NCBI RefSeq assembly: GCF_008329525.1
Contig: NZ_NPKQ01000001.1
Span: forward strand, 868,001-932,000
DNA from: Tardiphaga sp. P9-11
Lineage (GTDB): Bacteria > Pseudomonadota > Alphaproteobacteria > Rhizobiales > Xanthobacteraceae
Direction: 5' to 3'
Length of the DNA: 64,000 bases
Shown: positions 23,231 through 41,140 of the stretch, one piece after another
Position numbering within the stretch: position 1 is the first letter of the stretch
Layout: every line of letters begins with the position of its first letter
Notes under the pieces: model-generated
What the model was told of the DNA's origin: nothing
The model's input: only the letters and a program-made list of their open reading frames with translations
Databases searched by the model: none
Translations under genes and position numbers: made by a program

Positions 23231-24811
23231 ATGTATGATGTGATCGTCGTCGGTGGTGGATCTGCCGGCGCTGCGGTGGCTGCCAGACTCTCCGAAAATC
23301 CGGCCACCCGCGTGCTGCTGCTCGAAGCCGGTCTCGACTGGCGCGCGGCCGACGCGCCGTGGGAAGTCACCACGCCGAATCCGATCCCGATCATTCACCA
23401 ACGCGAATTCCAGGAGAAGTGGCAGTGGCCACAACTGCATTCGCGCCGCGTCGCGGGGCAGGACCAGCGCTTCTACTGGCGCGGCAAGGGCCTCGGTGGC
23501 TCCTCCATGATGAACGGACAGATCGCGATCCGCGGCGTTGCGGATGCATTCGACGAGTGGGCGTCGATGGGCTGCACCGGCTGGTCGGCCAAGGAGATCA
23601 TGCCGCTGTTCTCGGTGATTGAGGATGATCTTGACCTCGGCGACAGGCCCGGCCATGGCCGCGGTGGGCCGCTGCCGGTCTATCGTGCGCCGCCGGAGAC
23701 ATGGGGCCCGATCGACAAGGGTCTGCGCGATGCCGCATTGGCGTCAGGCTATGCGTGGTGCGACGACGTCAATGGTCCGGATGGCGAAGGCGTCGCCTGC
23801 TATCCGATCAACAGCCGCGATCTGCGGCGTATTTCGACCAATGAAGCCTATCTTGAGCCGGCGCGCGGCCGCACCAATCTCGAGATCCGCGGTCATGCGC
23901 TGGTCGATCGCGTTGTGATCAAGGATGGTCAGGCCACCGGTGTGATCGTGCACTTTGGGGGCCAGGGCACGCAGGAAATCAGCGCGCGCGAGATCGTGTT
24001 GTGCGGCGGCTCGATCCACAGCCCGGCGATCCTGCTACGCTCGGGCGTCGGCCCCGCGGCTGAGCTAAAGGCGATGGGTATTGCCGTTCAACGCGACCTG
24101 CCCGTCGGCCAGAACTTCTTCGATCATCCGCTGTTCCGCACCACCATCAAGCTGCATGACGACGTTGAACCGAAGGACAAGGATACGCGTCATACCAATT
24201 GCTGCGTCACCTATTCGTCCGGCCTCGACGATGGTCGGCGCGACATGATCCTGATCGCCTTCAATCATCGCGGTATTGGCAACCCCGGCGCGATCGGCGC
24301 GGGGCTGTATCGCGCTTATTCTCGCGGCACACTGAAGCTCGCGTCACCCGATGCGACGATCGATCCGATCGTTGAAGAGAACATGCTGTCGGATCCACGC
24401 GACATGGCGCGTATGGTCGACGCGGTGAAGCGACTTGCTGTAATCACCACGCAGCCGGCGCTTGCCGGTATAGCCGACTGGATTCGCCTTACCGATACGG
24501 ACCTCACACTGCCGCAGGCGGCAGCGCTGCCGTTGCATGAGCTGGAGGCTCTGCTGCGCCGTGACACCGGCGACATCCAGCACGCCTCGGGCACTTGCCG
24601 CATGACGGGCTTCGATATGACTGACGGCGTCGTCAATCCGGATGGCACGGTGAAGGGTATTGCAGGCCTGCGGGTGGCCGATGCTGCGATCATGCCGGCC
24701 GACTGTCGCGCCAACACCCACTTCACCGCGGTGGTGATCGGTGAAGCTATTGCGCGGATGATGATGCGCAAGCAGGACAGTGCCGCACCTGCCGTGGCGA
24801 TGGCGAAGTAA
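23231..24811 (+). CDS. GMC family FAD-dependent oxidoreductase
   Basis: 526 residues. The N-terminal Rossmann motif YDVIVVGGGSAGAAVAARLS binds FAD with an Ala-rich helix and a LLLEAG strand. The GMC signature 1 region is RFYWRGKGLGGSSMMNGQIA and the second signature is LCGGSIHSPAILLRSGVGP. The C-terminus has HASGTCRM and CRANTHFTAVVIGE, containing the catalytic His and the second His/Asn pair. Such enzymes oxidise alcohols (choline, alkyl or cyclic alcohols, sugars) with O2 or an electron acceptor. It is the first gene of a plus-strand run of catabolic-looking genes. Substrate not identifiable. Confidence 0.9.
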   Translation: MYDVIVVGGGSAGAAVAARLSENPATRVLLLEAGLDWRAADAPWEVTTPNPIPIIHQREFQEKWQWPQLHSRRVAGQDQRFYWRGKGLGGSSMMNGQIAIRGVADAFDEWASMGCTGWSAKEIMPLFSVIEDDLDLGDRPGHGRGGPLPVYRAPPETWGPIDKGLRDAALASGYAWCDDVNGPDGEGVACYPINSRDLRRISTNEAYLEPARGRTNLEIRGHALVDRVVIKDGQATGVIVHFGGQGTQEISAREIVLCGGSIHSPAILLRSGVGPAAELKAMGIAVQRDLPVGQNFFDHPLFRTTIKLHDDVEPKDKDTRHTNCCVTYSSGLDDGRRDMILIAFNHRGIGNPGAIGAGLYRAYSRGTLKLASPDATIDPIVEENMLSDPRDMARMVDAVKRLAVITTQPALAGIADWIRLTDTDLTLPQAAALPLHELEALLRRDTGDIQHASGTCRMTGFDMTDGVVNPDGTVKGIAGLRVADAAIMPADCRANTHFTAVVIGEAIARMMMRKQDSAAPAVAMAK

Positions 24812-24855
24812 GAATGCGCAACGTAAGCGCCCCAAGAATGAGCGAAGGACGATGC

Positions 24856-26019
24856 ATGTCAAAAAATACCGAAGCCCAGATCATCGAATGGCTGGCGTCA
24901 CAGAAGCAGCCGATGATCGATCTCCTGCGCGACGTCGTGAATATCGATTCCGGCTCCTTCGACAAGGAAGGCGTCGATGCCGTCGGCGCCCGCTTTGAGC
25001 AGCACTTCGCTGAATATGGCATCGAGACCTGGCGAGAGCCGCATGATGTCTATGGCGATGCGGTTCATGGGCTGATCGGCAAGCCCGGCAGTAATGAAAA
25101 GCCGGTCCTGCTGATGGGTCATCGCGATACAGTGTTTCCCAAGGGCGAAGTCGCCAAGCGGCCCTTCACCATCAAAGGCAATCTTGCCCATGGCCCGGGT
25201 GTCGCCGATATGAAGGCCGGCGTCGTCATCAACGTGTTCGTAGCCGCGGCGCTGAAGAAGTTCGATGCAGCGCCGTGCCCGATCAAGCTGTTGATCACCG
25301 GCGACGAGGAGATTGCATCGCGCTCGTCGCGGCCGATTATCGAGCGCGAGGGGCGTGCCGCTCGCGCTGTCTACAATTCCGAACCTGGCCGTCCGACCGG
25401 CAATATCACGACGGGCCGCAAGGGTGGCGTCTTCATGCGCTTCGAAGTCTTTGGCAAGGCCGCGCATTCCGGCAATAATTTCTCCGTCGGCATCAGCGCC
25501 ATCGGCGAACTCGCGCACAAGATCGTGCAGATCCATGCGCTGACCGATATGGACAAGGGCATCACGCTGAATGTCGGCCTGGTCTCGGGTGGCCAGTCGG
25601 TCAACACCACGGCGCCCCATGCCGAAGGCGAGATCGATTTCCGCTATATCGAGCCGGCCGACCGCGCGACCGTCATGGACGCGATCGAAAAGATCATCGC
25701 GACATCGACCGTGCCGGGCACGACGGCGAAGCTGCATATCAACGGCGAATTCCTGCCATTGGTGCAGGACGCAGCCGCCAAGGCGATGTTCGATGTATAT
25801 CAAGCCGCAGCAGTGGATTCCGGCCTTGCTACCCTGACCGGTGAATTTGCCGGCGGCTGTGCGGATTCAGGTTTCACCGCCAGCGTCGGCACGCCGACGC
25901 TCTGCGGCCTCGGCCCCGTCGGCGGCAATGTCCATACCGACCTGGAGTGGCTGGATATCGAAAGTATTGTTCCACGTGCGCAGACGCTGGCGCGGGCGAT
26001 CCTGCGCACGGAGATTTGA
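24856..26019 (+). CDS. M20 family metallohydrolase (CPG2/ArgE-like)
   Basis: 387 residues from the ATG at 24856, with GAAGGA upstream; in-frame ATGs at 24814 and 24838 are alternatives. Metal-site motifs are complete: GHRDTV (His, Asp), GPGVADMKAG (bridging Asp), ITGDEEIAS (catalytic Glu and metal Glu), NSEPGR and a C-terminal GNVHTDLEW His. The middle dimerisation domain contains GKAAHSGNN. This pattern is that of glutamate carboxypeptidase-like aminoacylases and carbamoylases, cleaving an amide or peptide bond of an N-acyl or N-carbamoyl amino acid. It may be a downstream hydrolase of the local catabolic route. Confidence 0.88.
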   Translation: MSKNTEAQIIEWLASQKQPMIDLLRDVVNIDSGSFDKEGVDAVGARFEQHFAEYGIETWREPHDVYGDAVHGLIGKPGSNEKPVLLMGHRDTVFPKGEVAKRPFTIKGNLAHGPGVADMKAGVVINVFVAAALKKFDAAPCPIKLLITGDEEIASRSSRPIIEREGRAARAVYNSEPGRPTGNITTGRKGGVFMRFEVFGKAAHSGNNFSVGISAIGELAHKIVQIHALTDMDKGITLNVGLVSGGQSVNTTAPHAEGEIDFRYIEPADRATVMDAIEKIIATSTVPGTTAKLHINGEFLPLVQDAAAKAMFDVYQAAAVDSGLATLTGEFAGGCADSGFTASVGTPTLCGLGPVGGNVHTDLEWLDIESIVPRAQTLARAILRTEI

Positions 26020-26099
26020 CGAAAGGCAAAGCGTGGCATGGTTCTGGCACGGTGATGGTTGCTGACAACGCTATTGTTTGAAGAGACACTCGCCTGACC

Positions 26100-27821
26100 A
26101 TGACATCATCCCCTCCCGTTATCTCGGTTCCCATCCATCTCGAATCCGACGTCCTCGTGGTCGGCGCCGGTGGCGCCGGCATGTATGCCGCGCTGGAAGC
26201 GGCGAAGGGCGGCGCTTCGGTCATTCTCGCCGACCGCAGCCTGATCGGGCGCGGCGGTGCCACCGTGATGGCGCAGATGACGGTAGCCGCCGCCTTGGGC
26301 GAGCAGACGCCAGATCACTGGGAGCATCATTTCGCCGATACGCTCGCTGCAGGCCGCGGGCTCTGCGACGAGCGTCTCGCGGCATTGCTCTGCGAAGATG
26401 GTCCGCAGCGATTGCGCGAGATGGATGCGTGGAAGGTCGGCTGGGCGCGCGAAGACGGCCATATCAAACAGGCACAAGCGCCGGGCCATGACCGCCCGCG
26501 CTGCGCTTATGTGGATTTTCTGTCCACGGGTCCTGCAGTATCGAAGACGCTACGCACGCAGTTGAACAATGCGAGCGGCATTCGCCGCATCGGCGATCTC
26601 AGTATCGTCGATATCGCATTGCGCGACGGCGAGGCCTGCGGCGCAACCGCGTTGCATCTGCCGACCGGGCAGACGGTGACATTGGCTGCAAAGGCGGTGA
26701 TCATCGCGACCGGCGGTCTCACGGGACTTTATCGCCGCAACAGCGCCTCGTCGAATATGGGCGGCGATGGTTATGCGCTGGCATTGCGCGCCGGTGCCGA
26801 TCTGATCGACATGGAATTCGTGCAGTTCTTCCCGATCGGCCATCTCGCGCCGCGCCTCGTCGGCATGGATCCGATCATGTGGGATCCGTTTCGCTACAAG
26901 CTCGGTGGCAAGCTGCTCAACTCCGAAATGCGCGAATTCGAGATGGATTACGCCACCAAGGACGCGCGTAGCGATGGCACTTACAAGCTCACGCGCGATC
27001 TCGCGACCTATGCGATCACCAAGGAAGTCGAGGCCGGTCGGGGAAGTCCCGCCGGCGGCGCTTATCTCAGTTTCCAGCATGTGCCGGAGGCCGAGATACG
27101 CAAGGCGTTCGGCCCGGTGGTGGATCGTCTCGCCGAAAACGGCATCGATCTGGCGCAGCGTCCTGTCGAGGTTGCGCCGATCGCGCATTATCATATGGGC
27201 GGCATTCGCGTGGACGAGATGATGCAGACCGGCGTGCCCGGGCTCTATGCTTGCGGCGAAGCGGTCGGCGGCGCCAATGGGGCGAACCGGTTGTCGGGCA
27301 ATGCAATCACCGAAGCCTTTGTGTTCGGCGCGCGGGCCGGACGCAGCGCTGCGGAGCGCGCGAAGCAGGGCGCGTCGATGTGGACTGCCGATGCGGCGCA
27401 GCCGACGCTCGATCTACTGCGTAGCGCCAGCAAGCGCGATGCACCAAATCCCGCTGCGATTATCGTGAAGTTGCAGGCCGTGATGGCCGATGATGTCGGC
27501 CCGTTCCGGACCGATGTGAAATTGCGTTCGGCCATATCAGCCATTGCGCAGTTGAAGGCCGATATCGGCAATACACCATTTGCGTCTGCCAAAGCCTTCG
27601 ATCCCGTGCTGGCCGACTGGCTCGATCTCCGCAACATGCTCGCCGTCGCGCAATCCGTAGCCGTACCGGCACTCGCACGCACCGAAAGCCGCGGTGCGCA
27701 TCAGCGCGACGATCATCTTGGTCTCGATGAAGCCTGGAGCGTCAACCAGATCGTTACTGTGTCGGACGGCGACATAACTCTGCGCAAAGTGATGCCCACA
27801 ACCGGAAAGGCTGCCGCATGA
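26100..27821 (+). CDS. Fumarate reductase/succinate dehydrogenase-like flavoprotein
   Basis: 573 residues. The N-terminal DVLVVGAGGAGMYAALEAAK binds FAD, and ATGGLTGLYRRNSASSNMGG, FVQFFPIGHL and IAHYHMGGI are conserved in the FrdA/SdhA/AprA group. The latter includes the substrate-site HxMGG. The usual flavin-linking His of SdhA/FrdA (S-H-T-V-A-A-Q) is replaced by G-A-T-V-M-A-Q, so FAD is probably not covalent. It overlaps by 4 nt the next gene, which encodes only the 2Fe-2S half of an SdhB-like subunit. No membrane-anchor genes follow, so this is likely a soluble two-subunit redox enzyme acting on an unsaturated or hydroxy acid. Confidence 0.82.
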   Translation: MTSSPPVISVPIHLESDVLVVGAGGAGMYAALEAAKGGASVILADRSLIGRGGATVMAQMTVAAALGEQTPDHWEHHFADTLAAGRGLCDERLAALLCEDGPQRLREMDAWKVGWAREDGHIKQAQAPGHDRPRCAYVDFLSTGPAVSKTLRTQLNNASGIRRIGDLSIVDIALRDGEACGATALHLPTGQTVTLAAKAVIIATGGLTGLYRRNSASSNMGGDGYALALRAGADLIDMEFVQFFPIGHLAPRLVGMDPIMWDPFRYKLGGKLLNSEMREFEMDYATKDARSDGTYKLTRDLATYAITKEVEAGRGSPAGGAYLSFQHVPEAEIRKAFGPVVDRLAENGIDLAQRPVEVAPIAHYHMGGIRVDEMMQTGVPGLYACGEAVGGANGANRLSGNAITEAFVFGARAGRSAAERAKQGASMWTADAAQPTLDLLRSASKRDAPNPAAIIVKLQAVMADDVGPFRTDVKLRSAISAIAQLKADIGNTPFASAKAFDPVLADWLDLRNMLAVAQSVAVPALARTESRGAHQRDDHLGLDEAWSVNQIVTVSDGDITLRKVMPTTGKAAA

Positions 27822-28153
27822 AAGCGACACTCAGCATTCAGCGCGGTGCGCTCGGCGAAGCGCCGCGTCACGACGCGTTCGACATCCCCTTTGAACACGG
27901 CCAGTCGATCCTCGATGGGTTGCGCGCCATTCGCCGGAGCATGGATCCCTCGCTGGCGTTTCGCTTCTCCTGCATCAATGCGAATGCGTGCAAGGAATGT
28001 ATGATGCTGATCGATGGCAAGGTCGATTACGCCTGCACGGTTCGGCTTAAAGAGGGCATGACGACGCTGGCACCGCTGCCGAAGAAGGCGCTGATCCGCG
28101 ATCTCGTCACCGAGATCGCGCCGCCGGATGAACGCTTGATGTCGCGATCTTGA
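27818..28153 (+). CDS. SdhB/FrdB N-terminal-type 2Fe-2S protein, single cluster
   Basis: 111 residues. The beta-grasp pattern of the SdhB N-terminal domain is present (FDIPFEHGQSILDGLRAIRR, then SLAFRFSC). Four cysteines lie at 52, 58, 61 and 73 in C-x5-C-x2-C-x11-C spacing, followed by YACTV. Ordinary SdhB has C-x4-C-x2-C/D and a further C-terminal domain with 4Fe-4S and 3Fe-4S clusters, which is missing here. The start overlaps the flavoprotein stop (ATGA). It probably passes electrons from the FAD to an unknown partner. Confidence 0.78.
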   Translation: MKATLSIQRGALGEAPRHDAFDIPFEHGQSILDGLRAIRRSMDPSLAFRFSCINANACKECMMLIDGKVDYACTVRLKEGMTTLAPLPKKALIRDLVTEIAPPDERLMSRS

Positions 28154-28221
28154 AACGGTTGCTGCCTGCCGCGCGGTCAGACTGATTAATTTATAGTCGT
28201 TCTAATCTGAGGAAGCCGGCC

Positions 28222-28767
28222 TTATTCCGCCAAATCGGCCGATCCATCGCGGCTGCTGTTCGTTGCGACAATGCGCTGCATCATGGCGATAAACGCTGTC
28301 TGTTCCGCCTTGGTGAGGTTGCCCAGCGTTGCCTTATGCGCCTCGCGGGCGCCGGCTTCGATCTTGTCCAGCAATGCGACGCCGGCAGGTGTCAGCCGGC
28401 AGATGCGGGCGCGGCGGTCGTCATCGCTGACCGGGCGCTCGACCAGTTTGCGGACTTCGAGCCGTTTCAGCGCGCCGGTTGTTGTCGTGCGATCCAGAGC
28501 AATATCAGCGGCTAAGGTGGTCTGATCGGCTGTTCCGCGCGCCGCGAGTGCCGACAGTAGACTGTATTGCAGTGGGGTCATTTCGAAAGCGCTGCACGCC
28601 TCCTGGAATAGAGCGACATGGATCTGGTGCAACCGCCGGATCAAAAATCCCGGTCGCTGGGCCAGCGGCCAGGGCTTGTGGACGGGCTTGTCACGGCGCG
28701 GCTTCGCCTGGGGCAACGCAGTCTCTCCTTGTGTCGGCTGCTGCTCGTATGGTGCGAGCGCGCTCAA
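28222..28767 (-). CDS. MarR family transcriptional regulator
   Basis: About 181 residues if translation starts at the TTG at 28767; no in-frame ATG precedes the DNA-binding domain, so the start is uncertain. The winged-helix region is clear: LQYSLLSALAARGTADQ, TLAADIALDRTTTTGALKRL (recognition helix) and VSDDDRRARICRLTPAG (the basic wing with D-x-R-x-R). The first 40 residues are basic and probably disordered. MarR proteins usually repress and are released by an aromatic ligand. It is divergent from the amidohydrolase operon across a perfect 11-bp-arm palindrome, its likely operator. Confidence 0.85.
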   Translation of the reverse strand: MSALAPYEQQPTQGETALPQAKPRRDKPVHKPWPLAQRPGFLIRRLHQIHVALFQEACSAFEMTPLQYSLLSALAARGTADQTTLAADIALDRTTTTGALKRLEVRKLVERPVSDDDRRARICRLTPAGVALLDKIEAGAREAHKATLGNLTKAEQTAFIAMMQRIVATNSSRDGSADLAE

Positions 28768-28811
28768 AAACTACCGCATCGCAATGTTTATGGCACGGAC
28801 TTTGCTTTTGT

Positions 28812-28837
28812 AAAATACGAAGTATGCTTCGTATTTT
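28812..28837. promoter_or_regulatory. Palindromic operator between the MarR gene and amidohydrolase operon
   Basis: AAAATACGAAG at 28812-28822 and CTTCGTATTTT at 28827-28837 are perfect inverted repeats separated by 4 nt. The site lies nearly midway between the divergent starts (28767 and 28883). Length and symmetry fit a dimeric MarR operator. Repression of both directions is inferred. Confidence 0.8.
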
Positions 28838-28882
28838 GGTGGGCCTCTAAAATTGAGGTCGCCAAAGCGTAAGGAGATCGCC

Positions 28883-30160
28883 ATGTCTGTTACTGCCTCA
28901 TTCGACCTGCTGCTGCGCGGTGGTCGCGTTATCGATCCCGCAGCCGGCATCGATGGCATCAAGGATGTCGCCATTCGCAACGGCAAGATTGCCGCCGTGC
29001 AGTCCGACATTCTGCCGACCAGCGCGAAGGAAGTCGTCGATGTCTCCGGCAAGCTGGTGCTGCCGGGCATGATCGATACCCATGCGCATGTCTATCAGTA
29101 TGTCAGCGGTCGTTTCGGCATGCAGCCCGACATGGTCGGCGTGCAGTCCGGCGTCACCACGCTGATCGATCAGGGTGGCCCGTCCTGCATGACGTTGCCC
29201 GGCTTTCGTCATTTCATCGCTGAGCCCGCGAAATCTAGGGTCTACGCGTTTCTGTCCGCCTATCTCGTCGGCGGTCTCGAAGGGCACTTCTATCCCAACC
29301 TCTACAGCCCGGACGGCGTCGATATCGAGGCGACCACCAAGTCGGCGATCGCCAATCGCGATCTGGTGCGCGGCATCAAGGCTCATGCGGAAATCGGCGG
29401 CTTCGCGCGCTGGGGCATTCGCGTGATGGAGATGGCGGCGGAGATAGGCAAGCGCGCCGAGCTGCCGGTCTATGTGCATTTCGGCCAGCTCTGGGGCCTG
29501 CCGGAGTCAGGCAACAATGGCGAGGACGTCGATACGATTCTGGAGCGCGTGATTCCGCTGCTGAAGGAAGGCGACGTGCTGGCGCATCCGTTCACGCGCC
29601 ATCCCGGCGGTTTCGTCAATCGCGAAGGTGTGGTGCATCCGGTGATCCAGGCCGCGATCGATCGTGGCCTCAAGATCGATGTCGGCCATGGCAGCCACTT
29701 CTCCTATCGCCTCGCCAAGAAGGCGATCGCTGCTGGTATCGTGCCGAACACGCTCGGCGCCGATATTCATGGCTATAACACCGAGGTGCCTGCGCCTGCC
29801 GGCACGCCGGATGAGCACGAGGATGACGAGAACCATCCGTTCAAGGGCCAGGCCAAGTTCAGCCTGGTGCAGGCGATGAGTTCGATGATTTCGCTGGGCC
29901 TCACGCTCGAGCAGGTGGTGCCGATGGTGACGTCGAACCCGGCCAAGATGATCGGTCTGTCGGACAAGATCGGCTCGCTGAAGGTCGGCATGGACGCTGA
30001 TGTCTCGGTGTTGGTCGAGAAACCCGGCCGCTACGTCCTGCGCGACAACGAGAACACCGATGTGATTGCGAACGGCCTTCTGCAGCCGGCCTTCTGTCTG
30101 CGTGAAGGCGTTCGGTTTGAGCCGATCGCGCCGATCCTGCCTCAGGCCGTCGCGGCCTGA
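28883..30160 (+). CDS. Amidohydrolase/deacetylase family metallohydrolase
   Basis: 425 residues from ATG 28883 after a strong AAGGAGAT site. It is a TIM-barrel amidohydrolase: the N-terminal beta-sandwich FDLLLRGGRVIDPAAGIDGI, then LVLPGMIDTHAHVYQY with the H-x-H metal ligands. IKAHAEIGG supplies the bridging residue position, with YVHFGQ and LGADIHGYN further on. The C-terminus closes the sandwich with MDADVSVLVE. It resembles the EF_0837/AHA_3915 deacetylase-like and dihydroorotase-like group, which hydrolyse cyclic or acyclic amides. It is the first gene of the operon facing the MarR regulator and is followed by the Mo-hydroxylase. Confidence 0.86.
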   Translation: MSVTASFDLLLRGGRVIDPAAGIDGIKDVAIRNGKIAAVQSDILPTSAKEVVDVSGKLVLPGMIDTHAHVYQYVSGRFGMQPDMVGVQSGVTTLIDQGGPSCMTLPGFRHFIAEPAKSRVYAFLSAYLVGGLEGHFYPNLYSPDGVDIEATTKSAIANRDLVRGIKAHAEIGGFARWGIRVMEMAAEIGKRAELPVYVHFGQLWGLPESGNNGEDVDTILERVIPLLKEGDVLAHPFTRHPGGFVNREGVVHPVIQAAIDRGLKIDVGHGSHFSYRLAKKAIAAGIVPNTLGADIHGYNTEVPAPAGTPDEHEDDENHPFKGQAKFSLVQAMSSMISLGLTLEQVVPMVTSNPAKMIGLSDKIGSLKVGMDADVSVLVEKPGRYVLRDNENTDVIANGLLQPAFCLREGVRFEPIAPILPQAVAA

Positions 30161-30200
30161 GATCAAACGCATACTCGTGAGAGACGCCGGGGGTTCGTCG

Positions 30201-33415: not shown

Positions 33416-34614
33416 ATTCGGTCGAACTCACCGTCAACAAGCGCGTGGTCCAGAAGGTGGTCGAGCCGCGCACCAGCCTTGCTGACATGATGCGCGATAC
33501 GCTGGATCTCACCGGCACCCATCTCGGCTGCGAGCATGGCGTCTGCGGCGCCTGCACGATCCTGGTGGATGGCGTGCCGACGCGGTCCTGTATCACTTAT
33601 GCAGTGGCGTGCGATGGCGCTGACGTTACCACCATCGAAGGTCTCGATGACGACGAGATCGCTGGCGAATTGCGTGCGGCCTTCACGCGCGAACATGCCT
33701 TGCAATGCGGTTACTGTACCCCGGGGATGCTGGTCTCCGCACGCGATCTGGTGAAGCGCCTGCCGGATGCTGACGAGAAGCAGATCCGCATCGGCATGTC
33801 AGGCAATCTCTGCCGCTGCACCGGCTATGTCGGCATCGTCCGTGCCGTGCAGTCGGTGATCTCCGAACGCCGCGCGCGCGATATTGCGCCGGAGCCGGAT
33901 GGTGGCCGCAAGGTGCTGGGGCCGGCCGGGTCGGGGCACAATGCGTGTGTCAGCTTCCAGAAGCTGATGTCCGCGAAGCCTGCTGTATCCGAATCCGCTG
34001 CCGCCGGCGCACCACTGGACATTCCAGACTTCACGCCATCGACCACGATCGAGCAGCAATTCACGGTCGCGCATGCACCTGCAAAAGTCTTCGCCCTGTT
34101 CGACGACATCGCGGCCGTCGCATCCTGCCTGCCTGGGGCTACGCTGGTCGGCACGCCAAAGCCCGAGCGCGTCGAAGGCGCGATCCGCGTCAAGATTGGA
34201 CCCATCTCCGCGAACTTCAACGGTGCCGCGCGGGTCGAACGCGACGAAGCCAATCTTTCGGGGCGCATTCTCGGCGTTGGTAGCGACCAACGCAGCCGCT
34301 CCACGACCCAGGGAGCAATCCGCTACCGGCTCGTGCCGCTTGATAACGGCGCAGCGACGCGAGTCGAACTCACCATCGGTTACAGCCTCACCGGCATGCT
34401 GGCGCAGGTCGGCCGCAGCGGCCTCGTGCGCGACCTCGCAAGCCGGCTGGTCGCGGAATTCGCGGGCAATCTCGATCGTCGCCTAAGAGGCGATGTGATA
34501 TCGGCGCCGTCTGCGGCGGCCGATCTGAATGGTGTTTCGCTGATCCTCGGTCTCCTGCGTGAGCGCGCGACGAATTTTGTTCGCCGCCTCACCGGGCGTG
34601 GAGGATCGGCGTGA
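33412..34614 (+). CDS. Fusion of xanthine dehydrogenase-type 2Fe-2S subunit and CoxG-like SRPBCC domain
   Basis: 400 residues. Residues 1-155 are a complete CoxS small subunit: GCEHGVCGACTILVDGVPTR with a further Cys for the plant-type 2Fe-2S, then CGYCTPGML and CRCTGYVGI for the alpha-helical 2Fe-2S. A linker of about 50 residues leads to a CoxG/SRPBCC domain at about 205-360 (QFTVAHAPAKVFALFDDIAA, CLPGATLVG, KIGPISANFNGAARV). CoxG is usually a separate protein helping recruit CO dehydrogenase to the membrane. The C-terminal 35 residues are basic and hydrophobic (LILGLLRERATNFVRRLTGR), which would fit membrane association. Confidence 0.88.
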   Translation: MNSVELTVNKRVVQKVVEPRTSLADMMRDTLDLTGTHLGCEHGVCGACTILVDGVPTRSCITYAVACDGADVTTIEGLDDDEIAGELRAAFTREHALQCGYCTPGMLVSARDLVKRLPDADEKQIRIGMSGNLCRCTGYVGIVRAVQSVISERRARDIAPEPDGGRKVLGPAGSGHNACVSFQKLMSAKPAVSESAAAGAPLDIPDFTPSTTIEQQFTVAHAPAKVFALFDDIAAVASCLPGATLVGTPKPERVEGAIRVKIGPISANFNGAARVERDEANLSGRILGVGSDQRSRSTTQGAIRYRLVPLDNGAATRVELTIGYSLTGMLAQVGRSGLVRDLASRLVAEFAGNLDRRLRGDVISAPSAAADLNGVSLILGLLRERATNFVRRLTGRGGSA

Positions 34615-34693
34615 GAGATCGACGTTCGCTTGGACATGCGAACGGCGAGGTTTGGACTGCGCAAGCTTCATCAGCGTAACACTGGAGGACCAC

Positions 34694-35848
34694 ATGATAC
34701 GGACCATCAAGGCAGCTTCGGCGACAGCCCTGGCAATTGCTTTCCTGAGCAGCGCCGCGACTGCGCAAACCATCAAGATCGGCGTCAATGAGCCGCTGAC
34801 AGGAGCCTTCGCTGCATCGGGCACCTATGTCGTCAACGGCGCCAAGATCGCCGCCGACGAAATCAACGCCAAGGGCGGCTTGCTCGGCAAGAAGATCGAG
34901 CTCGTCATCGAGGACAACAAGAGCAACCCGACGGAAGCCGCTGCCGTCGCCGAGAAGCTGATCACTCGCGACAAGACGCCGGTGATGCTGGGCGCCTGGG
35001 GTTCCAGCCTCACCCTCGCCGTGATGCCGAAGCTGGTCGAATACGAAACCGCGATGGTCGTCGAGACCTCGTCGGCAAGCAAGATCACCACCTCGGGTAA
35101 CCCTTACGTGTTCCGCATCTCGCCGCCGTCCTTCGTGGAAGCGGCTGCGTTCAAGAACATCGTCGACAAGCTGGCGCTGAAGAAGGTGGATTTCCTCGTC
35201 ATCAACAATGACTGGGGCCGCGGCACCGCCGAGGACTTCAGCAAGATGATGAAGGAAAAGGGCATCACCATCGGTCTGGTCGAGACCATGGACCAGTCGG
35301 CGCAGGACATGAGCGCGCAGCTAGCCAAGATCAAGGCAACGGATTCGGAGACCGTGATTATCACGGCCGCGGTTGACCAGTTGACGTTGATCTTCAAGCA
35401 GGCTGCAGCGCTCGGCCTGAAGAAGCGGATCATCACCACCGGTGGTTCGCAGAACCCCGACCAGATCATCGCGCAGGCCGGTGCTGCTGCGAACGACACC
35501 ATGCATCTGACCACCTTCCTGCCCTGGATGCCGGAAAAGACGCCGAACCCGGAAGCCACCACCTATTTCATTGGTGAGTGGAAGAAGCGCGGCTTCGATT
35601 TCGCCGGCTGCACCGAGAGCTTCCGCGGCTATGATGGCATTCGCACCATTGCGGCCGCCATCGAAAAGGCCGGCAAGGCCGAGCCTGCAGCGATCAAGGA
35701 CGCGCTCTGGAAGATCGACGTCAAGGGTCTGAACGGCGACATCGTGTTCAAGAAGTCTGGTCCGGCAGGTTCGGAGAGCGGCCAGAGCTTCCCCAACGTC
35801 TATCTGATCGAAATCACGAGTGGCAAGATCGTGATGAAGGATCTGTGA
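34694..35848 (+). CDS. Branched-chain amino acid-type ABC transporter substrate-binding protein
   Basis: 384 residues from the ATG at 34694, preceded by GGAGGACCAC. Sec signal peptide: MIRTIKAASATALAIAFLSS with ATAQ cleavage near residue 24. The mature protein starts TIKIGVNEPLTGAFAASGTY and continues with AADEINAKGGLLGKKIELV, the standard opening of LivJ/HAAT-like periplasmic binding proteins. It is followed by livH, livM, livG and livF, making a complete importer directly downstream of the molybdenum hydroxylase genes. The ligand is probably the substrate of that pathway rather than leucine, but that is inference. Confidence 0.9.
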   Translation: MIRTIKAASATALAIAFLSSAATAQTIKIGVNEPLTGAFAASGTYVVNGAKIAADEINAKGGLLGKKIELVIEDNKSNPTEAAAVAEKLITRDKTPVMLGAWGSSLTLAVMPKLVEYETAMVVETSSASKITTSGNPYVFRISPPSFVEAAAFKNIVDKLALKKVDFLVINNDWGRGTAEDFSKMMKEKGITIGLVETMDQSAQDMSAQLAKIKATDSETVIITAAVDQLTLIFKQAAALGLKKRIITTGGSQNPDQIIAQAGAAANDTMHLTTFLPWMPEKTPNPEATTYFIGEWKKRGFDFAGCTESFRGYDGIRTIAAAIEKAGKAEPAAIKDALWKIDVKGLNGDIVFKKSGPAGSESGQSFPNVYLIEITSGKIVMKDL

Positions 35849-35900
35849 TCCAAGCTGGTCGTTCCGGGGCGTTCGCGCATCTTTGCGCGAGCGAGCCTCA

Positions 35901-35920
35901 GCCACTCCGGTTGGAGTGGC
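35901..35920 (+). other. 8-bp hairpin between binding-protein gene and livH
   Basis: GCCACTCC at 35901-35908 and GGAGTGGC at 35913-35920 form a perfect stem with a GGTT loop, 52 nt after the binding-protein stop. No U-tract follows. In transporter operons such hairpins often stabilise the upstream binding-protein mRNA so that it is made in excess of the permease; that role is inferred here. Confidence 0.45.
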
Positions 35921-35952
35921 GGGGAACCTCGAAGTGAGATTCACTACTGCGA

Positions 35953-36009
35953 GATTCCGGGTCTTCGCAGCAGCCGGCAAGCCGTCTGCCGCGAATCCCG
36001 GAATGACAT
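35953..36009. repeat. Dispersed GC-rich intergenic repeat, copy 1 (inverted relative to copy 2)
   Basis: The segment runs from GATTCCGGGTCTTCG to CCCGGAATGAC. Its reverse complement matches the segment at 53901-53960 over most of about 57 positions, including the TTCCGGG ends, the CAG(A/C)CGGC core and GCGAAGACCCGGAAT. Both copies are intergenic and internally palindromic, as expected for a REP/RPE-like mobile repeat common in this bacterial group. It ends about 15 nt before the livH start. Confidence 0.7.
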
Positions 36010-36023
36010 AAAAGGGAACATCC

Positions 36024-36896
36024 GTGGACCAGCTCCTGCAACACCTCGTCAACATGCTCGTGCTCGGCGGCACCTATGCGCTGCTCGGCATCGGTTTAAC
36101 GCTGATCTTCGGCATCATGAACGTGGTGAATTTTACCCACGGCATTCTTTACACGTTCGGCGCCTATATGATGTTCATCGTCGTGCATCAGCTCGGCTTG
36201 AACTTCTTTTTCGCGCTGCCGGTGGCGATCGTCGCCGGCTGGCTGCTGGGCGCGCTCATCGAAATCACGCTGCTGCGGCCGCTGCGCGGCGCCGATATCG
36301 ACACCACCATGCTGGTGATGATCGGCGCCTGGATCGCGATGCAGTCTGGCGCGCTGTGGATCTGGGGCGGCGTCGCCAAGTCGATCGACAATCCGTTTCC
36401 CGACGCACCGCTGGTGATCGGACCGGTGTCTGTGTCCTGGTTGCGGCTGTTCGTGCTGTTTGCGGCCGCGCTGCTGATCGTGCTGGCTTATTCGCTGATT
36501 AATCTCACCAAACTAGGCAAGGCGATGCGCGCGACCTTCCAGGATTCCGACACCGCCGCACTCATGGGCGTCAATGTCAGCCTGATCTACACCTCGACCT
36601 TTGCCATCGGCTCGAGCCTCGCCGCCGCTGCCGGCGCGCTGCTGGGCCCGGTCTATGTGGTGTTTCCGCAGATGGGCGATCTCGCTGCGGTGAAGGCCTT
36701 CGCCATCGTCATCCTTGGTGGCCTTGGCAATATCACCGGGGCCGTGATCGGCAGTTTCATTCTAGCGCTCGCTGAAGAACTCGGCGCCGGTTACGTTTCG
36801 TCGGGCTATCGCGATGCCATGGGCTTCCTGATCATCATCATGGTGCTGATCTTCAAACCCACCGGGCTGTTCGCACGGGCGGAGCGCGTCGGATGA
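36024..36896 (+). CDS. livH: Branched-chain amino acid-type ABC transporter permease LivH
   Basis: 290 residues starting with GTG at 36024, with AAAGGGAA upstream. About eight membrane helices are visible, including the N-terminal LGGTYALLGIGLTLIFGIMN and VNFTHG, which are LivH signatures. The cytosolic EAA-like coupling segment near the C-terminus reads ALMGVNVSLIYTSTFAIGSS. AVKAFAIVILGGLGNITGAV is a conserved LivH region. It forms half of the inner-membrane channel with LivM. Its stop overlaps the livM start by 4 nt. Confidence 0.93.
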   Translation: MDQLLQHLVNMLVLGGTYALLGIGLTLIFGIMNVVNFTHGILYTFGAYMMFIVVHQLGLNFFFALPVAIVAGWLLGALIEITLLRPLRGADIDTTMLVMIGAWIAMQSGALWIWGGVAKSIDNPFPDAPLVIGPVSVSWLRLFVLFAAALLIVLAYSLINLTKLGKAMRATFQDSDTAALMGVNVSLIYTSTFAIGSSLAAAAGALLGPVYVVFPQMGDLAAVKAFAIVILGGLGNITGAVIGSFILALAEELGAGYVSSGYRDAMGFLIIIMVLIFKPTGLFARAERVG

Positions 36897-37939
36897 AGCA
36901 GATCGTCACGCTCCTCTGTCTCGGCTTCTTCGTCTCCGTGCCCATGTGGCTGACGGATCCGTATCTGCTCAATGCGTTGATCACGACCGGCATCTTCATC
37001 ATCGGCGCAATGAGCCTCAACCTGCTGCTCGGCTTCACCGGACAGCTGAGTCTTGGCCATATCGCCTTCTTCGGTATCGGCGCCTATGTCAGTGCGCTGA
37101 CATCGTTGGGCTTCGATGTCCCGATCTACGGCGATTTCCACATCGTTCATGTGCCATGGCCGCCGATCGCAGGTTTCTTTCTGGCGATCCTCATCTCGGG
37201 CTTCTGCGGCTATCTGGTCGGGCGATTGTCCTTCAGTGTGCGCGGCGCTTACTTCGTCATCGTCACAATTTCGTTCGCTGAAGTCGTGCGACTCGTCGCG
37301 CTGAACTGGGTCGAACTCACGCAGGGACCGCTGGCGCTGACCAACATTCCGTCGATCACCATTGGTCTGCCGGGGCTTGGTTATCTCGTGCTGAAGACCA
37401 AGTTTCACAATTACTATCTTGTGCTCGCTGTCGCGACCCTCTCGTATTTTCTGATCTCGCGCCTCGTTCACTCGCATTACGGCCGCGCCATGCGCGGGTT
37501 GATGGAGAACGAGACGCTGGCCGTCGCCGTCGGCATCGACGTCACCAGGACGCTGACATTGGCTGCCGTGATCTCTGCGGCTATCGCCGGCGCTGCCGGA
37601 AGTCTTTATGCGCACTACATTCGCATTATCGATCCCGACGTCTTCGCCTTCATCTCGACGGTGACAATGGTGATCATGGTGGTGTCGGGCGGCAAGGGCT
37701 CGCTGGCCGGACCTGTGGTCGGCGGCATTATCTTCGGCCTGCTGCCGGTGTTCCTGCGGCCGATCATGCCGCCGGAGGCACAGTGGATCACCTATGGCGT
37801 GGTGCTAATTGTCATCCTGTTCGTGATGCCGCGCGGCATCGTGCCGTCGCTTGCCGCAAAACTCGGTTTGGCCCGTGCCGGCGGAACCAGACGGGCGTCC
37901 AGTGCCGTTTCCGAACGCACCGCCGAGGAGCATGCGTGA
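36893..37939 (+). CDS. livM: Branched-chain amino acid-type ABC transporter permease LivM
   Basis: 348 residues with about ten hydrophobic segments. Conserved LivM motifs are LNLLLGFTGQLSLGHIAFFG, where the G-Q-(L/I)-S-(L/F)-G-H core is diagnostic, and GRAMRGLMENETLAVAVGID, the cytosolic coupling loop. Near the C-terminus are GGKGSLAGPVVGG and IVLFVMPRGI-like segments. It pairs with LivH in the inner membrane. The tail of about 25 residues after the last helix is polar. Its stop overlaps livG by one nucleotide (TGATG). Confidence 0.93.
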   Translation: MKQIVTLLCLGFFVSVPMWLTDPYLLNALITTGIFIIGAMSLNLLLGFTGQLSLGHIAFFGIGAYVSALTSLGFDVPIYGDFHIVHVPWPPIAGFFLAILISGFCGYLVGRLSFSVRGAYFVIVTISFAEVVRLVALNWVELTQGPLALTNIPSITIGLPGLGYLVLKTKFHNYYLVLAVATLSYFLISRLVHSHYGRAMRGLMENETLAVAVGIDVTRTLTLAAVISAAIAGAAGSLYAHYIRIIDPDVFAFISTVTMVIMVVSGGKGSLAGPVVGGIIFGLLPVFLRPIMPPEAQWITYGVVLIVILFVMPRGIVPSLAAKLGLARAGGTRRASSAVSERTAEEHA

Positions 37940-38739
37940 TGGCCGAGACAGTCCTCAGCATCGAACACGTCGCCGTTCATTTCGGCGGCCTCGTCGCCAT
38001 CTCGGACATGAATTTCCATGTCGACAAAGGCGAAATCGTCAGCCTGATCGGGCCGAACGGCGCCGGCAAGACCACGGCCTTCAACGTCATGACCGGCTTT
38101 CTGACGCCCACCAAGGGCGCGGTGAAATACTGCGGCGCTGATCTCAAGGGCAAGAAGCCGCATGAGATCGCGGATCTCGGATTGATCCGTACCTTCCAGC
38201 GCACCAGCGTGTTTCCCAACGATACCGTCTACGACAATGTCCTGATCGGGCTGCATCGCCAGGGCAAGGTCGGGCTTGTCGAGGCGATCCTCGGATTGCC
38301 GCGCGCCCGCGCATCGGAGAAGGCGCAACGCGAACGCGCGGCCGAACTGGTGCGCTGGATTGGGCTGGACGCACGGGCCAACGATCTCGCAGGTTCGCTA
38401 TCTTATGGCGAGCAGCGCCTGGTCGGTGTTGCATTGGCGCTGGCAGCACAGCCGAAGATGCTGCTGCTGGACGAGCCGGTGTCCGGCATGAACGCATCGG
38501 AGACGCACACATTTGTGCAGTTGATCCGCAATATCCGGGATCGTGGTGTTACGATCCTGCTGGTCGAGCATGACATGCCGATGGTGATGAGCGTGTCGGA
38601 TCGCATCGTGGTGCTGAACTACGGCCGCATCATCGCCGAGGGACCGCCGGAGACGATCCGCAACGATCCCGCTGTCATCGAAGCCTATCTCGGGCAGGGC
38701 GCCAAGCAGATCGTCAAGCAGGAGGCCGTGCATGCTTGA
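37939..38739 (+). CDS. livG: Branched-chain amino acid-type ABC transporter ATPase LivG
   Basis: 266 residues from the ATG at 37939; a longer in-frame extension lies inside livM and is rejected. Motifs: Walker A GPNGAGKTT, the Liv-specific FNVMTGFLTPTKG, RTFQRTSVFPNDTVYDNV (Q-loop), signature LSYGEQRLVGVALAL, Walker B MLLLDEPVSGM and H-loop LLVEHDM. It drives import by ATP hydrolysis together with LivF. The signature has Tyr where Gly is canonical, which is common in LivG. Confidence 0.94.
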   Translation: MAETVLSIEHVAVHFGGLVAISDMNFHVDKGEIVSLIGPNGAGKTTAFNVMTGFLTPTKGAVKYCGADLKGKKPHEIADLGLIRTFQRTSVFPNDTVYDNVLIGLHRQGKVGLVEAILGLPRARASEKAQRERAAELVRWIGLDARANDLAGSLSYGEQRLVGVALALAAQPKMLLLDEPVSGMNASETHTFVQLIRNIRDRGVTILLVEHDMPMVMSVSDRIVVLNYGRIIAEGPPETIRNDPAVIEAYLGQGAKQIVKQEAVHA

Positions 38740-39436
38740 GATTCGCGATATGGTCTGCGGCTATGGCCAGATCACAGCCCTCAAAGGCGTGACGCTCTCC
38801 GTGAAGGCCGGGCAGTTAGTGGCTCTCATTGGCGCCAATGGCGCCGGCAAGAGCACTACGCTGCGTGCGATTTCAGGCCTTGTGCCCGCGCGCTCTGGTA
38901 GCATGCATTTCGATGGCGAGGACATCACCGGCGTCGGGCCGCAGCGCGTGCTCACCAAGGGCATCGCGCATTGTCCGGAAGGCCGTCGTGTGTTTCCGCA
39001 TATGACGGTGGCAGAGAATCTCGACATGGGCGCCTATCTTCGCTCCGACACATCTGAAGTCGCAGTCGATCGCGATCGCATCTACAGCGATTTTCCGCGT
39101 CTCGCCGAACGCCGTAAGCAGGCGGCTGGTACGCTGTCCGGCGGCGAGCAGCAGATGCTGGCGATCGGTCGCGCACTGATGTCACGGCCGCGGCTGGTGA
39201 TGTTCGACGAGCCGTCGCTTGGTCTCGCGCCGAACATCGTCGAGCGCACCTTTGCGATTATCCGTGCGATCCGCGATGCGGGCACGACCGTCTTGCTGGT
39301 CGAGCAGAATGCTTTCGCCGCGCTGGAGATGTGCGATCACGCCTATCTGCTGGAGTCCGGCCGTGTCGTGCTGTCCGGCGCGGGAGCGGAGCTGATCGAG
39401 AACGAGCATGTGCGACGGGCTTATCTTGGCGGATGA
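38732..39436 (+). CDS. livF: Branched-chain amino acid-type ABC transporter ATPase LivF
   Basis: 234 residues. Walker A GANGAGKST, Q-loop region GIAHCPEGRRVFPHMTVAEN (the E-G-R-R-(V/I)-F string is typical of LivF), signature LSGGEQQMLAIGRAL, Walker B LVMFDEPSLGLAPNIV and H-loop region LLVEQN with Gln in place of His. The start overlaps livG by 8 nt. It completes the five-component importer. The final residues overlap the start region of the Rieske gene. Confidence 0.94.
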   Translation: MLEIRDMVCGYGQITALKGVTLSVKAGQLVALIGANGAGKSTTLRAISGLVPARSGSMHFDGEDITGVGPQRVLTKGIAHCPEGRRVFPHMTVAENLDMGAYLRSDTSEVAVDRDRIYSDFPRLAERRKQAAGTLSGGEQQMLAIGRALMSRPRLVMFDEPSLGLAPNIVERTFAIIRAIRDAGTTVLLVEQNAFAALEMCDHAYLLESGRVVLSGAGAELIENEHVRRAYLGG

Positions 39437-39770
39437 CGGCGAACCCGCCCGGTGGGTCGCGGTCTGTTCGCGCGAGCGCCTGACTGAACAGATGATCGTC
39501 TGTGTCAACCTAGCTGGCATCGGTATTCTTATCGTGCAGGATGGTAAGACGATCTACGCCTGCGAGCGCGCCTGTCCCCATGAGCAGGCGGATCTCAGCC
39601 TTGGCCGCATCGCCGATGGCCGGCTGCACTGTCCGCGCCATCTCGCTTGGTTCAGCCTCGCCGACGGCAGCATGTCGCCGGGCTGGCCGAGCCGGGGTTT
39701 GCGACGCTATCCCGTGCGCGAAAACGATGCGCAAATCTGGGTCGACGTAGCAGCCATCGTCCCAAAGTAA
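39408..39770 (+). CDS. Rieske 2Fe-2S ferredoxin-like protein
   Basis: Up to 120 residues if it starts at ATG 39408, which lies inside livF; a TTG at 39426 is an alternative. The Rieske motif is CPH, 16 residues, then CPRH (C-x-H...C-x-x-H), with the typical surrounding ARWVAVCSRERL and WFSLADGSMSPGW. Size and lack of a membrane anchor indicate a soluble Rieske ferredoxin of the kind that feeds ring-hydroxylating oxygenases. No oxygenase alpha subunit or ferredoxin reductase is visible nearby. Coupling to livF suggests co-expression with the catabolic operon. Confidence 0.8.
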   Translation: MCDGLILADDGEPARWVAVCSRERLTEQMIVCVNLAGIGILIVQDGKTIYACERACPHEQADLSLGRIADGRLHCPRHLAWFSLADGSMSPGWPSRGLRRYPVRENDAQIWVDVAAIVPK

Positions 39771-39997
39771 CGAACCTCGCGGCAGTTACCCGGCTTCGGG
39801 CCTGTAAGCAGAGGTAGTTGGCGCTGCAGCATTCAATTGGTGCAGTTGCGGTATAATAATCATGCTTGCCCCCTCGTAAAGCGCGGATAATACTGCTGAA
39901 AAGTCAGACTCCTGAGTGTGTCTGGCGGTACACAAATGGGCGCAAGACCCATGCTTCTCGTCGATCTTTCAAGCGATCTCCGTCAAGGGCTAGGGAT

Positions 39998-41140
39998 GTG
40001 ACCATTATCGATTTCGGCAGGGCCATCCCGTCGTCGCAGGCGCGTGGCTGGCAGCAATGGCCTGGCCATGAAGACTTTTCGCTGCAGTTCTTGCGCGTGC
40101 TGCGCGCGGCGCAGGAAGGCGGAAGTACCGTTTCGGAATGTTTCCTGGCGGCGGAACGCATCAATCCGCGCGATGACGAGAGCTGGTATCGCGAATGGCA
40201 TAGTGCGGCTGATATCAACCGTGAGCGCGCCGCGGAGGCGCTGGCCAGCGGCCGCATCCCGACGGCGCTGAGCAACTGGCTGCGCGCAGCCAACTACTAT
40301 CGCACTGCTCAGGTCATGCTCGCCTGCAGCGATCCGCGGCAGGCCGCCGCCATTGCCTTGATGCAGGATTGCGCCCGACTTTACGTGCAGCATGCAACGC
40401 CTGCCGGCGAGGTCGTCGAGATCCCGTGGCGGGACGGGGTGTTGCAGGGATACTTCGTCCCTGCGCCGCCGGCGACGCGGCCGCTGCCGGTCGTTCTCTG
40501 CGTCGTCGGGCAGGGCCACTACAAGGAAGAGCATCTGCACAGGGTGCCCAGCTACGCGCTGGAACGCGGTCTCGCGCTGTTGCTTGTCGATTTACCCGGT
40601 CAATCCTATAGCCAGGAGATGGTCGGGTCGCCTTGTCGGTATGAGGTCGAAACGGCAATCAGCGGCTGGGTCGATTTCCTGGCCGATCGCAGCGATATCG
40701 ATCAGGAGCGAATTGCGATCTTCGGAGACGGCCTCGGAGCCGCCTTTGCGACGCGTGGCGCCAATCTCGACGACCGCTTTGCAGCAGCTGTTTGCGATGC
40801 CGGAATCTGGGAACTTCACGAGCGCGCGTTTATTGCCAGCCGCATTTCGGGCCGGGCTGGTCTGGGCTGTCCGAGTGAAATCGAGGGCTTCAACAGCGGC
40901 AGCGTTGCCGCCAATATCAAATGCCCGGTCCTGGTTGCGATGGGGGAGCGCGACTGGCTCGATGTCGATCACGTCACGGAATGTTGCCGCGTCATGAAAC
41001 AAAACGGCCTCGACATCGAACTGAAGATCTTCCGCGCGTCGGAAACGGTGGCCCCGCCCGCCCAGATAGATATTCCGACGGTGGGCAACGAGTTCATTTT
41101 CGACTGGATTATCGATCGTTTGAACTCGAGGACGAAGTAG
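39998..41140 (+). CDS. Alpha/beta-hydrolase-fold protein lacking the catalytic Ser and His
   Basis: 380 residues from the GTG at 39998 (AGGG just upstream; the frame stays open to 39866). The helical N-terminal third (WYREWHSAADINRERAAEAL, NWLRAANYYRTAQVML) and the hydrolase core (LPVVLCVVGQGHYKEEHLH, GLALLLVDLPGQ) match the FrsA/2,6-dihydroxypseudooxynicotine hydrolase group. The nucleophile elbow, normally G-x-S-x-G, reads GDGLG at residues 243-247, with Gly at the Ser position. The acid site GERDWLDVDH is present. The terminal His loop reads RASETVAPPAQID with no His. It is probably a non-hydrolytic binding or regulatory protein, or one with a different chemistry. Confidence 0.78.
   Translation: MTIIDFGRAIPSSQARGWQQWPGHEDFSLQFLRVLRAAQEGGSTVSECFLAAERINPRDDESWYREWHSAADINRERAAEALASGRIPTALSNWLRAANYYRTAQVMLACSDPRQAAAIALMQDCARLYVQHATPAGEVVEIPWRDGVLQGYFVPAPPATRPLPVVLCVVGQGHYKEEHLHRVPSYALERGLALLLVDLPGQSYSQEMVGSPCRYEVETAISGWVDFLADRSDIDQERIAIFGDGLGAAFATRGANLDDRFAAAVCDAGIWELHERAFIASRISGRAGLGCPSEIEGFNSGSVAANIKCPVLVAMGERDWLDVDHVTECCRVMKQNGLDIELKIFRASETVAPPAQIDIPTVGNEFIFDWIIDRLNSRTK

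Follow-up and report, generated by a model that had tools for sequence, protein, structure and literature searches.

The 64,000-nucleotide window of the Tardiphaga sp. P9-11 genome (6.16 Mb) that was analysed here carries, at positions 28222-39770, a conserved unit whose products would import, hydroxylate and hydrolytically open a small nitrogen heterocycle. The unit lies within the neighbourhood under study, 23231-41140 in window coordinates, and does not extend over the whole of these ~18 kb. It codes for a MarR-type regulator (MarR1), a metal-dependent amidohydrolase (AmdH), a three-subunit molybdenum (Mo) hydroxylase (MoL, MoM and MoS-CoxG), a Liv-type importer and a Rieske-type ferredoxin. 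The proposed outline, namely import, hydroxylation beside the ring nitrogen, exit of electrons toward quinone, hydrolytic opening and relief of MarR repression, has an even chance of being correct. That the substrate is nucleobase- or hydantoin-like is a tentative assignment, possible rather than probable.

The extent of the unit emerges from comparison within the genus, for which 11 congeners were fetched with 20-kb flanks (loci L029-L039) and gene content was sampled in 18 genomes. The order MarR1-AmdH-MoL-MoM-MoS/CoxG-binding protein-two permeases-two ATPases-Rieske is identical in all 11 congeners, with MarR1 divergent beside AmdH in each, and because gene order is conserved in this way the locus is not a chance assembly. 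Of the 18 genomes, 16 have a MoL orthologue of at least 86% identity (split over two contigs in genome G006); the two without one are G010 (99% complete) and G003 (81% complete). The preliminary description had read 23231-41140 as a single pathway and proposed to compare synteny across relatives. This comparison upholds the core half of the reading, whereas the half formed by genes for a GMC oxidoreductase, an M20 hydrolase, a flavoprotein (FAD2) and a 2Fe-2S protein (Fer2) is not conserved with the core, an outcome that the description had named as refuting its reading: it adjoins it in the window and in only 4 of the 11 congeners, its closest relatives. Every gene named in that description is present as an intact open reading frame (ORF) with a family match.

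MarR1 (28222-28767, minus strand, Pfam MarR) is the divergent regulator of the core unit, and all genes from amdH to the end of the Rieske gene at 39770 are on the plus strand. AmdH (28883-30160), the proposed ring opener, is of PRK09237/cog3964 type; its ORF opens at 28853, and the start at 28883 is favoured by a ribosome-binding site and by alignment. There follow the genes of the xanthine-oxidase-family, Qor-like hydroxylase, which code for the molybdopterin subunit MoL (30201-32582, MoCoBD_1/2), the flavin adenine dinucleotide (FAD) subunit MoM (32579-33415, FAD_binding_5) and MoS-CoxG, a 2Fe-2S subunit fused to a CoxG domain (33412-34614, Fer2_2 and COXG). The importer comprises a Liv-type periplasmic binding protein (34694-35848, Peripla_BP_6), permeases 1 and 2 (36024-36896 and 36893-37939, both BPD_transp_2) and ATPases 1 (37939-38739, ABC_tran and BCA_ABC_TP_C) and 2 (38732-39436, ABC_tran). 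The Rieske-type ferredoxin (39408-39770, Rieske), kept in the genus, is encoded by the last gene of the unit. Junctions from amdH onwards are overlaps of 1-29 bases or gaps of ~40 (before MoL), 79 (before the binding protein) and 175 bases (before permease 1), a spacing tight enough to make a single transcript plausible on the coordinates.

The hydroxylase is best read as a Qor-like enzyme, predicted to hydroxylate an N-heteroaromatic ring. It has the L/M/S subunit composition of QorMSL from P. putida 86 and of other N-heterocycle Mo hydroxylases, and the solved structure nearest to MoL is quinoline 2-oxidoreductase QorL (612.8 bits, against 548.9 for carbon monoxide dehydrogenase, CODH). The aligned active-site loop reads YRGVAR in MoL, YRGVGF in QorL and YRCSFR in CutL, the cysteine of the latter being the copper ligand of CODH, and MoL has a Glu at the position aligned with KGxGE, whose Glu is catalytic. 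Unlike QorMSL, the Tardiphaga enzyme has its FeS subunit fused to CoxG and is partnered with AmdH and a Liv importer.

An alternative is that an enzyme of the CODH, glyceraldehyde dehydrogenase or xanthine dehydrogenase type, acting in CO, aldehyde or purine oxidation, has been misread as one of heterocycle catabolism. The best NCBIfam matches of MoL carry those names and CoxG is a partner of CODH, but MoL matches 13 NCBIfam families and reaches the curated cut-off of none, with 554 bits against 950 (NF040766) and 460 against 991 (TIGR02416) for CODH, 524 against 790 for glyceraldehyde dehydrogenase, and 345 against 780 and 264 against 784 for the XdhA/PucD models of xanthine dehydrogenase. 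On these scores together with the loop motif an identity as CODH or xanthine dehydrogenase was rejected, and the alternative as a whole is highly improbable. The genus is rich in Mo hydroxylases, with 18 MoCoBD_1 matches in genome G000 and 5-23 MoL-type matches in each of the congeners.

The CoxG domain at the carboxyl terminus of the FeS subunit (Pfam COXG) is an addition to the preliminary description. An AlphaFold model of the subunit (predicted local distance difference test, pLDDT, 73.2; predicted template modelling score, pTM, 0.47) matches CODH small subunits and CoxG. Its CoxG domain aligns with the crystal structure of M. smegmatis CoxG (8uds) at a template modelling (TM) score of 0.91 on the target and 1.8 A, and the C-terminal helix 374-393, where a membrane-anchoring end would be expected, is predicted at a low pLDDT of about 41-47. 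The fusion is not universal among relatives: CoxG is a separate gene following the FeS gene in loci L096, L098, L105, L107 and L136 and on two plasmids, and it is not seen after the FeS gene in L100, L104 and L106. The CODH systems of M. smegmatis and O. carboxidovorans, from which the Tardiphaga enzyme differs by the missing active-site Cys and the sub-threshold CODH scores, resemble it in having CoxG, described in passages of PMC13240472 and PMC4240915 as a partner of CODH that binds quinone or recruits the enzyme to the membrane, with proposed delivery of electrons to quinone.

AmdH scores 430.8 bits against NF006689/PRK09237, above the curated cut-off of 371. Its residues H67, H69, K166, H199, H235 and D294, aligned to 2ogj, are invariant in 10 of 10 aligned rows; HxH, Lys, His, His and Asp at these positions are the metal ligands of AmdH-type amidohydrolases. 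The AlphaFold model (mean pLDDT 71.8, pTM 0.79) has cog3964-type structures as first fold neighbours, then dihydroorotase, hydantoinase and allantoinase. AmdH is proposed to be a cyclic-amide or ureide hydrolase, with the proviso that such a ranking of cyclic amidohydrolases by fold is no proof of substrate. Its best solved relatives, 8wzy, 8je0, 2ics and 2ogj (we take the last two to be EF0837 and Atu3266), are cog3964-type proteins that share its fold and metal-ligand positions, and AmdH is set apart from them by an identity of only ~21-29% and by a branch tied to a Mo hydroxylase. The same relatives favour another role for AmdH, that of an esterase or N-deacylase, as Atu3266 and like cog3964 proteins presumably are, which would remove an acyl group before or after hydroxylation so that no ring is opened. 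An HSL-type alpha/beta hydrolase encoded between AmdH and MoL on Methylobacterium and Geminicoccaceae plasmids points the same way.

AmdH and MoL travel together. At E <= 1e-60 AmdH is found in 19 of the 385 genomes of the class searched (its own included), and in 16 of these a MoL of at least 61% identity is present on the AmdH fragment, usually adjoining and ~8 kb away in G120. Plasmid records with AmdH also carry a MoL of at least 65% within ~10 kb in 17 of 18 cases, the exception being Massilia putida (AmdH 41.6%). Named carriers are Bradyrhizobium, Methylobacterium, Azospirillum brasilense, Roseomonas, Reyranella, an Elioraea metagenome-assembled genome (MAG), Oxalicibacterium, Pseudorhodoferax and Caballeronia; plasmid carriers are Methylobacterium, Azospirillum, Paraburkholderia, Caballeronia, Pacificitalea and a Geminicoccaceae strain. 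A MoL tree of 68 rows (LG+G4, quick search, Shimodaira-Hasegawa-like approximate likelihood ratio support only, midpoint root) was built from rows with more than 600 aligned residues, leaving out eight loci that are near-duplicates from Tardiphaga or Bradyrhizobium or contig fragments. One lineage of the tree (support 99) has 46 rows, and in 35 of them, counting the window, an AmdH of at least 45% identity is present on the fragment. In L182, L183, L184 and L102 the genes for AmdH, MoL and DUF1116 are adjacent, and FAD and FeS subunits of the core type were not detected nearby.

The gap between MarR1 and AmdH holds ATACGAAGTATGCTTCGTAT, a palindrome (28815-28834) with a pyrimidine (y) at the ninth base of its consensus, which is putatively the MarR1 operator. 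It is the one such site in the window, against none in 100 shuffles, and occurs at one place in the 6.16-Mb genome at up to 3 mismatches, the reversed control giving no matches. Across an alignment of 14 loci (the window, 11 congeners, G401 and G323) it changes little, whereas much of the flanking sequence varies. When 20 genomes were scanned for an 18-base form, allowing 2 mismatches, a match came up in 19, among them 13 of the 14 from the genus, and none in G010, which is without the core. Scattered matches with 2 mismatches, one of them in G000, do not stand out from the reversed control (0-2 forward and 0-1 reverse per genome). In Betaproteobacteria, TGTGGTGCACCACA-like sites are present in L136 (three) and L105 (one), and a looser palindrome in L098; L107, L211 and L216 have palindromes that are not of the TGTGGTGCACCACA type, and the scan gives none in L082, L083, L086, L087, L210 and L218. 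Oxalicibacterium has TGTGGTGCACCACA-like sites both before its AmdH-HpxZ-amidase-DUF1116 genes and before MoL. Mo hydroxylase, cyclic-amidohydrolase-type enzyme and importer in one conserved unit with one regulator site are consistent with the hydroxylation and opening of an N-heterocycle that the preliminary description had suggested.

The best hint at the substrate class is an NCS1-type permease found in relatives. In G401, of the same family, and in two named Bradyrhizobium genomes a second palindrome stands 95 nt before its gene; the permease matches PF02133, and its best PDB match is the Mhp1 hydantoin permease (E 4.5e-9), followed by cytosine permease. Further hints come from a comparison of 28 AmdH-lineage loci, in which Tardiphaga is counted once, as the window, with 57 loci of more distant MoL relatives. 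The 28 were chosen for AmdH near MoL or for lineage membership, which makes the AmdH row circular; the controls are shorter on average (17.7 against 19.8 kb); and ten AmdH-less sister loci (L040, L041, L071, L091, L092, L094, L095, L097, L101 and L103) are in neither set. DUF1116 genes occur in 16/28 loci against 0/57 controls, with Fisher values that overstate, the related loci not being independent. Phosphoribosyltransferase (7/28), PhyH (6/28) and HSL (6/28) genes are likewise found in none of the 57, as are an orthologous Liv binding protein of at least 45% identity (10/28) and the NCS1-type permease (2/28). MarR genes are present in 18/28 against 5/57 and Rieske genes in 10/28 against 1/57, and the differences for HpxZ (3/28 against 0/57) and 2-oxoglutarate oxygenases (4/28 against 1/57) are weaker.

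Caballeronia M1242 has the string AmdH-MoL-MoM-FeS-SRPBCC(CoxG)-DUF1116-hpxZ-amidase-PhyH, and HpxZ is linked to the core also in Azospirillum, Oxalicibacterium and the Elioraea MAG. Since AllG, a DUF1116 protein, is part of AllFGH, the oxamate transcarbamylase of E. coli according to a passage of PMC11326118, the extra genes of the relatives point to ureido acids such as oxalurate. The likeness to All/Hpx ureide catabolism (AllFGH, HpxW-Z) lies in these loci adding AllG, HpxZ, an amidase and sometimes GGT. They differ from it in that the annotated genes around DUF1116 in four plasmid loci include none named AllF or AllH, as read from an incomplete gene table with no sequence search, and the Tardiphaga locus has no family matches to AllG/DUF1116, HpxZ, amidase or GGT. 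Esters are a poorer match than ureide or nucleobase-like substrates for the DUF1116, HpxZ/amidase and phosphoribosyltransferase genes, and for the permease that shares the palindrome in the Bradyrhizobium relatives; an esterase or N-deacylase role of AmdH is unlikely.

A PRK06031-type phosphoribosyltransferase accompanies the Mo hydroxylase cluster in L082-L087 and L100, the L087 copy scoring above the model cut-off. Two other substrates were considered and rejected. For cytokinin degradation, CHASE-domain kinases stand beside L084 and L086 only, none is found among the other scanned neighbours, and the literature search gave nothing; riboflavin/lumichrome catabolism relies on a different gene set.

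We favour the interpretation of 28222-39770 as a catabolic module induced by its substrate, in which the Liv system would import a small N-heterocycle and the Qor-like hydroxylase would insert a water-derived oxygen at a ring carbon beside the nitrogen. The electrons may leave through the FeS subunit and, with the help of its fused CoxG domain, reach the quinone pool of the membrane. The resulting cyclic amide or ureide would then be hydrolysed by AmdH, and MarR1, bound to the single palindrome, would shut the unit off when substrate is lacking.

Several points speak against this interpretation. Three of the 19 AmdH genomes have no MoL of the required identity beside AmdH: G338 (a 33% MoL only), G416 and G197. 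Characterised cog3964 members include an acetyl-mandelate esterase, and the name 'cyclic amidase' is not forced by the family. By analogy, direct electron transfer by CoxG is made less probable by the Sulfolobus CoxG, which a passage of PMC11962113 judges to be a membrane anchor that does not carry electrons. The palindrome-linked permease scores below the NCBI cut-off for NCS1 (144.7 against 353 bits), and its link to the palindrome rests on three related genomes that count as one event. AtzE-type amidases (5/28 against 3/57), GGT (3/28 against 1/57) and NMT1 importers (4/28 against 3/57) show no clear enrichment beside the AmdH lineage. Within the genus, DUF1116/AllG is found in 0 of 18 genomes, and HpxZ, present in 17 of 18 including the core-less G010, lies ~109 kb from the core in G000; the ureide hint therefore comes from relatives, and on the DUF1116 result ureide catabolism was rejected as the Tardiphaga pathway itself.

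Close relatives of MoL occur also in clusters of another composition. A MoL 73-76% identical to that of the window, with no AmdH on the fragment, is found in G018, G024, G100, Methyloligella, a proteobacterial MAG, Cupriavidus numazuensis and Sinorhizobium; the absence holds at fragment level, and for the whole genome only in G100, which is not among the 19 AmdH-matching genomes. In G018, G024, Methyloligella, the MAG and S. meliloti the genes beside MoL include some for biosynthesis of cofactor F420 (CofD, FbiC or F420 ligase). CoA-transferase subunits and two oxidoreductases, one an F420-type NADP oxidoreductase and the other of the LLM luciferase-like kind, are also encoded in most of these F420 clusters. 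PxpABC-type lactamases or an M20 hydrolase are encoded in some, the latter being a further point in favour of a deacylase role of AmdH. On pSymA of S. meliloti R28 (L208, CP130049 47772-80072) the string consists of Liv genes, npdG, cofD, cofC, a cofH-annotated gene, CoA-transferase, a TIGR03619 F420-dependent LLM gene, an ArgE/DapE deacylase, transhydrogenase, MoL, MoM, FeS and the binding protein. F420-biosynthesis markers are present in five rows of the tree. L040, L041, L091 and L092 form one group (support 99) inside an 18-row lineage shared with AmdH loci of Tardiphaga, Bradyrhizobium and Methylobacterium (support 92, open fork), and the remaining row, L115 (MoL 50%), is far off on a long branch. 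Relatives of MoL stand beside 5-oxoprolinase-type PxpABC genes in L095 (Rhodoplanes tepidamans), L071 (G100) and L092, which points to the ATP-dependent hydrolysis of a lactam as another possible substitute for AmdH.

The sister clusters may represent one hydroxylase-import module with alternative ring-opening partners. In its widest form this would be an undescribed module of Alpha- and Betaproteobacteria for import and hydroxylation of nucleobase- or hydantoin-like compounds, with two interchangeable ring openers, a proposal that is speculative and rather unlikely. One would be the metal cyclic amidohydrolase of Tardiphaga and most relatives. The other, as in S. meliloti pSymA and Methyloligella, would begin with an F420-dependent reduction, served by the LLM oxidoreductase, an F420 reductase and F420 biosynthesis genes of the cluster itself; hydrolysis of the M20 or 5-oxoprolinase type and CoA transfer would come next.

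The same sister genes can be accommodated in a pyridine-type route like 3-hydroxypyridine degradation by the four-component HpdA of Ensifer adhaerens HP1, in which the ring is hydroxylated and then reduced or opened and AmdH would be an enamidase. F420/LLM oxidoreductase, CoA-transferase and 5-oxoprolinase-type genes suit the reduction and opening of a lactam, and the proximity of MoL to quinoline 2-oxidoreductase fits as well. HpdA, compared here by description only, is cited in a passage of PMC11962113 with a CoxG homologue proposed as membrane anchor, whereas CoxG is fused in Tardiphaga. Dihydroxypyridine dioxygenase, deformylase and maleamate amidase are all absent among the family matches of the window locus, which has none to the dihydroxypyridine pathway, and this route is distinctly unlikely.

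Upstream of the unit, the accessory block 23231-28153 is a separate plus-strand unit running towards MarR1, a neighbour of the core and not part of it. It codes for the GMC oxidoreductase (23231-24811), the M20 hydrolase (24814-26019), the SdhA-like flavoprotein FAD2 (26100-27821) and the Fer2_3 2Fe-2S protein Fer2 (27818-28153). Fer2 is an SdhB-like product of 111 amino acids with a 2Fe-2S domain only, which beside the SdhA-like flavoprotein forms a putative two-component oxidoreductase; the M20 gene adjoins the FAD2 gene in several congeners. Of the 18 genus genomes 17 have M20, at no less than 80% identity in 16 of them and at 49% in G005; G010, which lacks both hydroxylase orthologue and operator, is one of the 17. 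FAD2 is found in 9 of 18, and the block therefore has its own history. A single pathway over all of 23231-41140, in which the GMC enzyme and flavoprotein oxidise the opened chain and M20 cleaves the amide, would agree with the contiguity of all blocks in the window and four congeners and with the presence of Fer2, FAD2 and M20 ~4-7 kb upstream of the core in G011. It is very unlikely, as the core stands without the full block beside it in 7 of the 11 congeners, M20 persists in the core-less G010, and the window scan finds no MarR1 palindrome before the GMC block. The 'amino-acylase' and chain-oxidation steps of the preliminary description thus rest on genes outside the conserved core.

Downstream, a plus-strand gene for a DHPON-hydrolase/FrsA-like alpha/beta hydrolase (39866-41140), MarR2 (41186-41821, minus strand, Pfam MarR) and its neighbour, a Porin_2 gene (41996-43603), are likewise accessory; among 12 congeners (L029-L039 and L042), 7 have them beside the core. 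The trio is possibly an add-on for outer-membrane entry and ligand binding. Where the solved relative has the nucleophile-elbow motif GxSxG, the window and all 7 orthologues compared have GDGLG, and in this respect the earlier name 'pseudo-hydrolase' was apt.

The kinds of enzyme in the unit are known. Their combination, already not recognised as a named pathway in the preliminary description, did not turn up in keyword searches of an open-licence library, some of them narrower than the whole combination, and an absence from such searches is weak evidence. A conserved unit that would lead from importer to ring opening under a single operator is tractable, and its regulator, operator, binding protein and hydroxylase can each report the ligand. 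Function would then follow for the PRK09237 amidohydrolase branch, for the DUF1116 proteins in these operons and for CoxG-fused FeS subunits. F420, LLM and CoA-transferase genes, joined in L208 by transhydrogenase genes, lie in one cluster with a close relative of MoL, and this is a candidate reason for F420 in rhizobia. Why Proteobacteria make this cofactor is presented as an open question in a passage of a 2021 review (PMC8498797). The sister clusters bear on it and, if the reading with two ring openers is true, would explain in concrete terms the production of F420 by some Proteobacteria.

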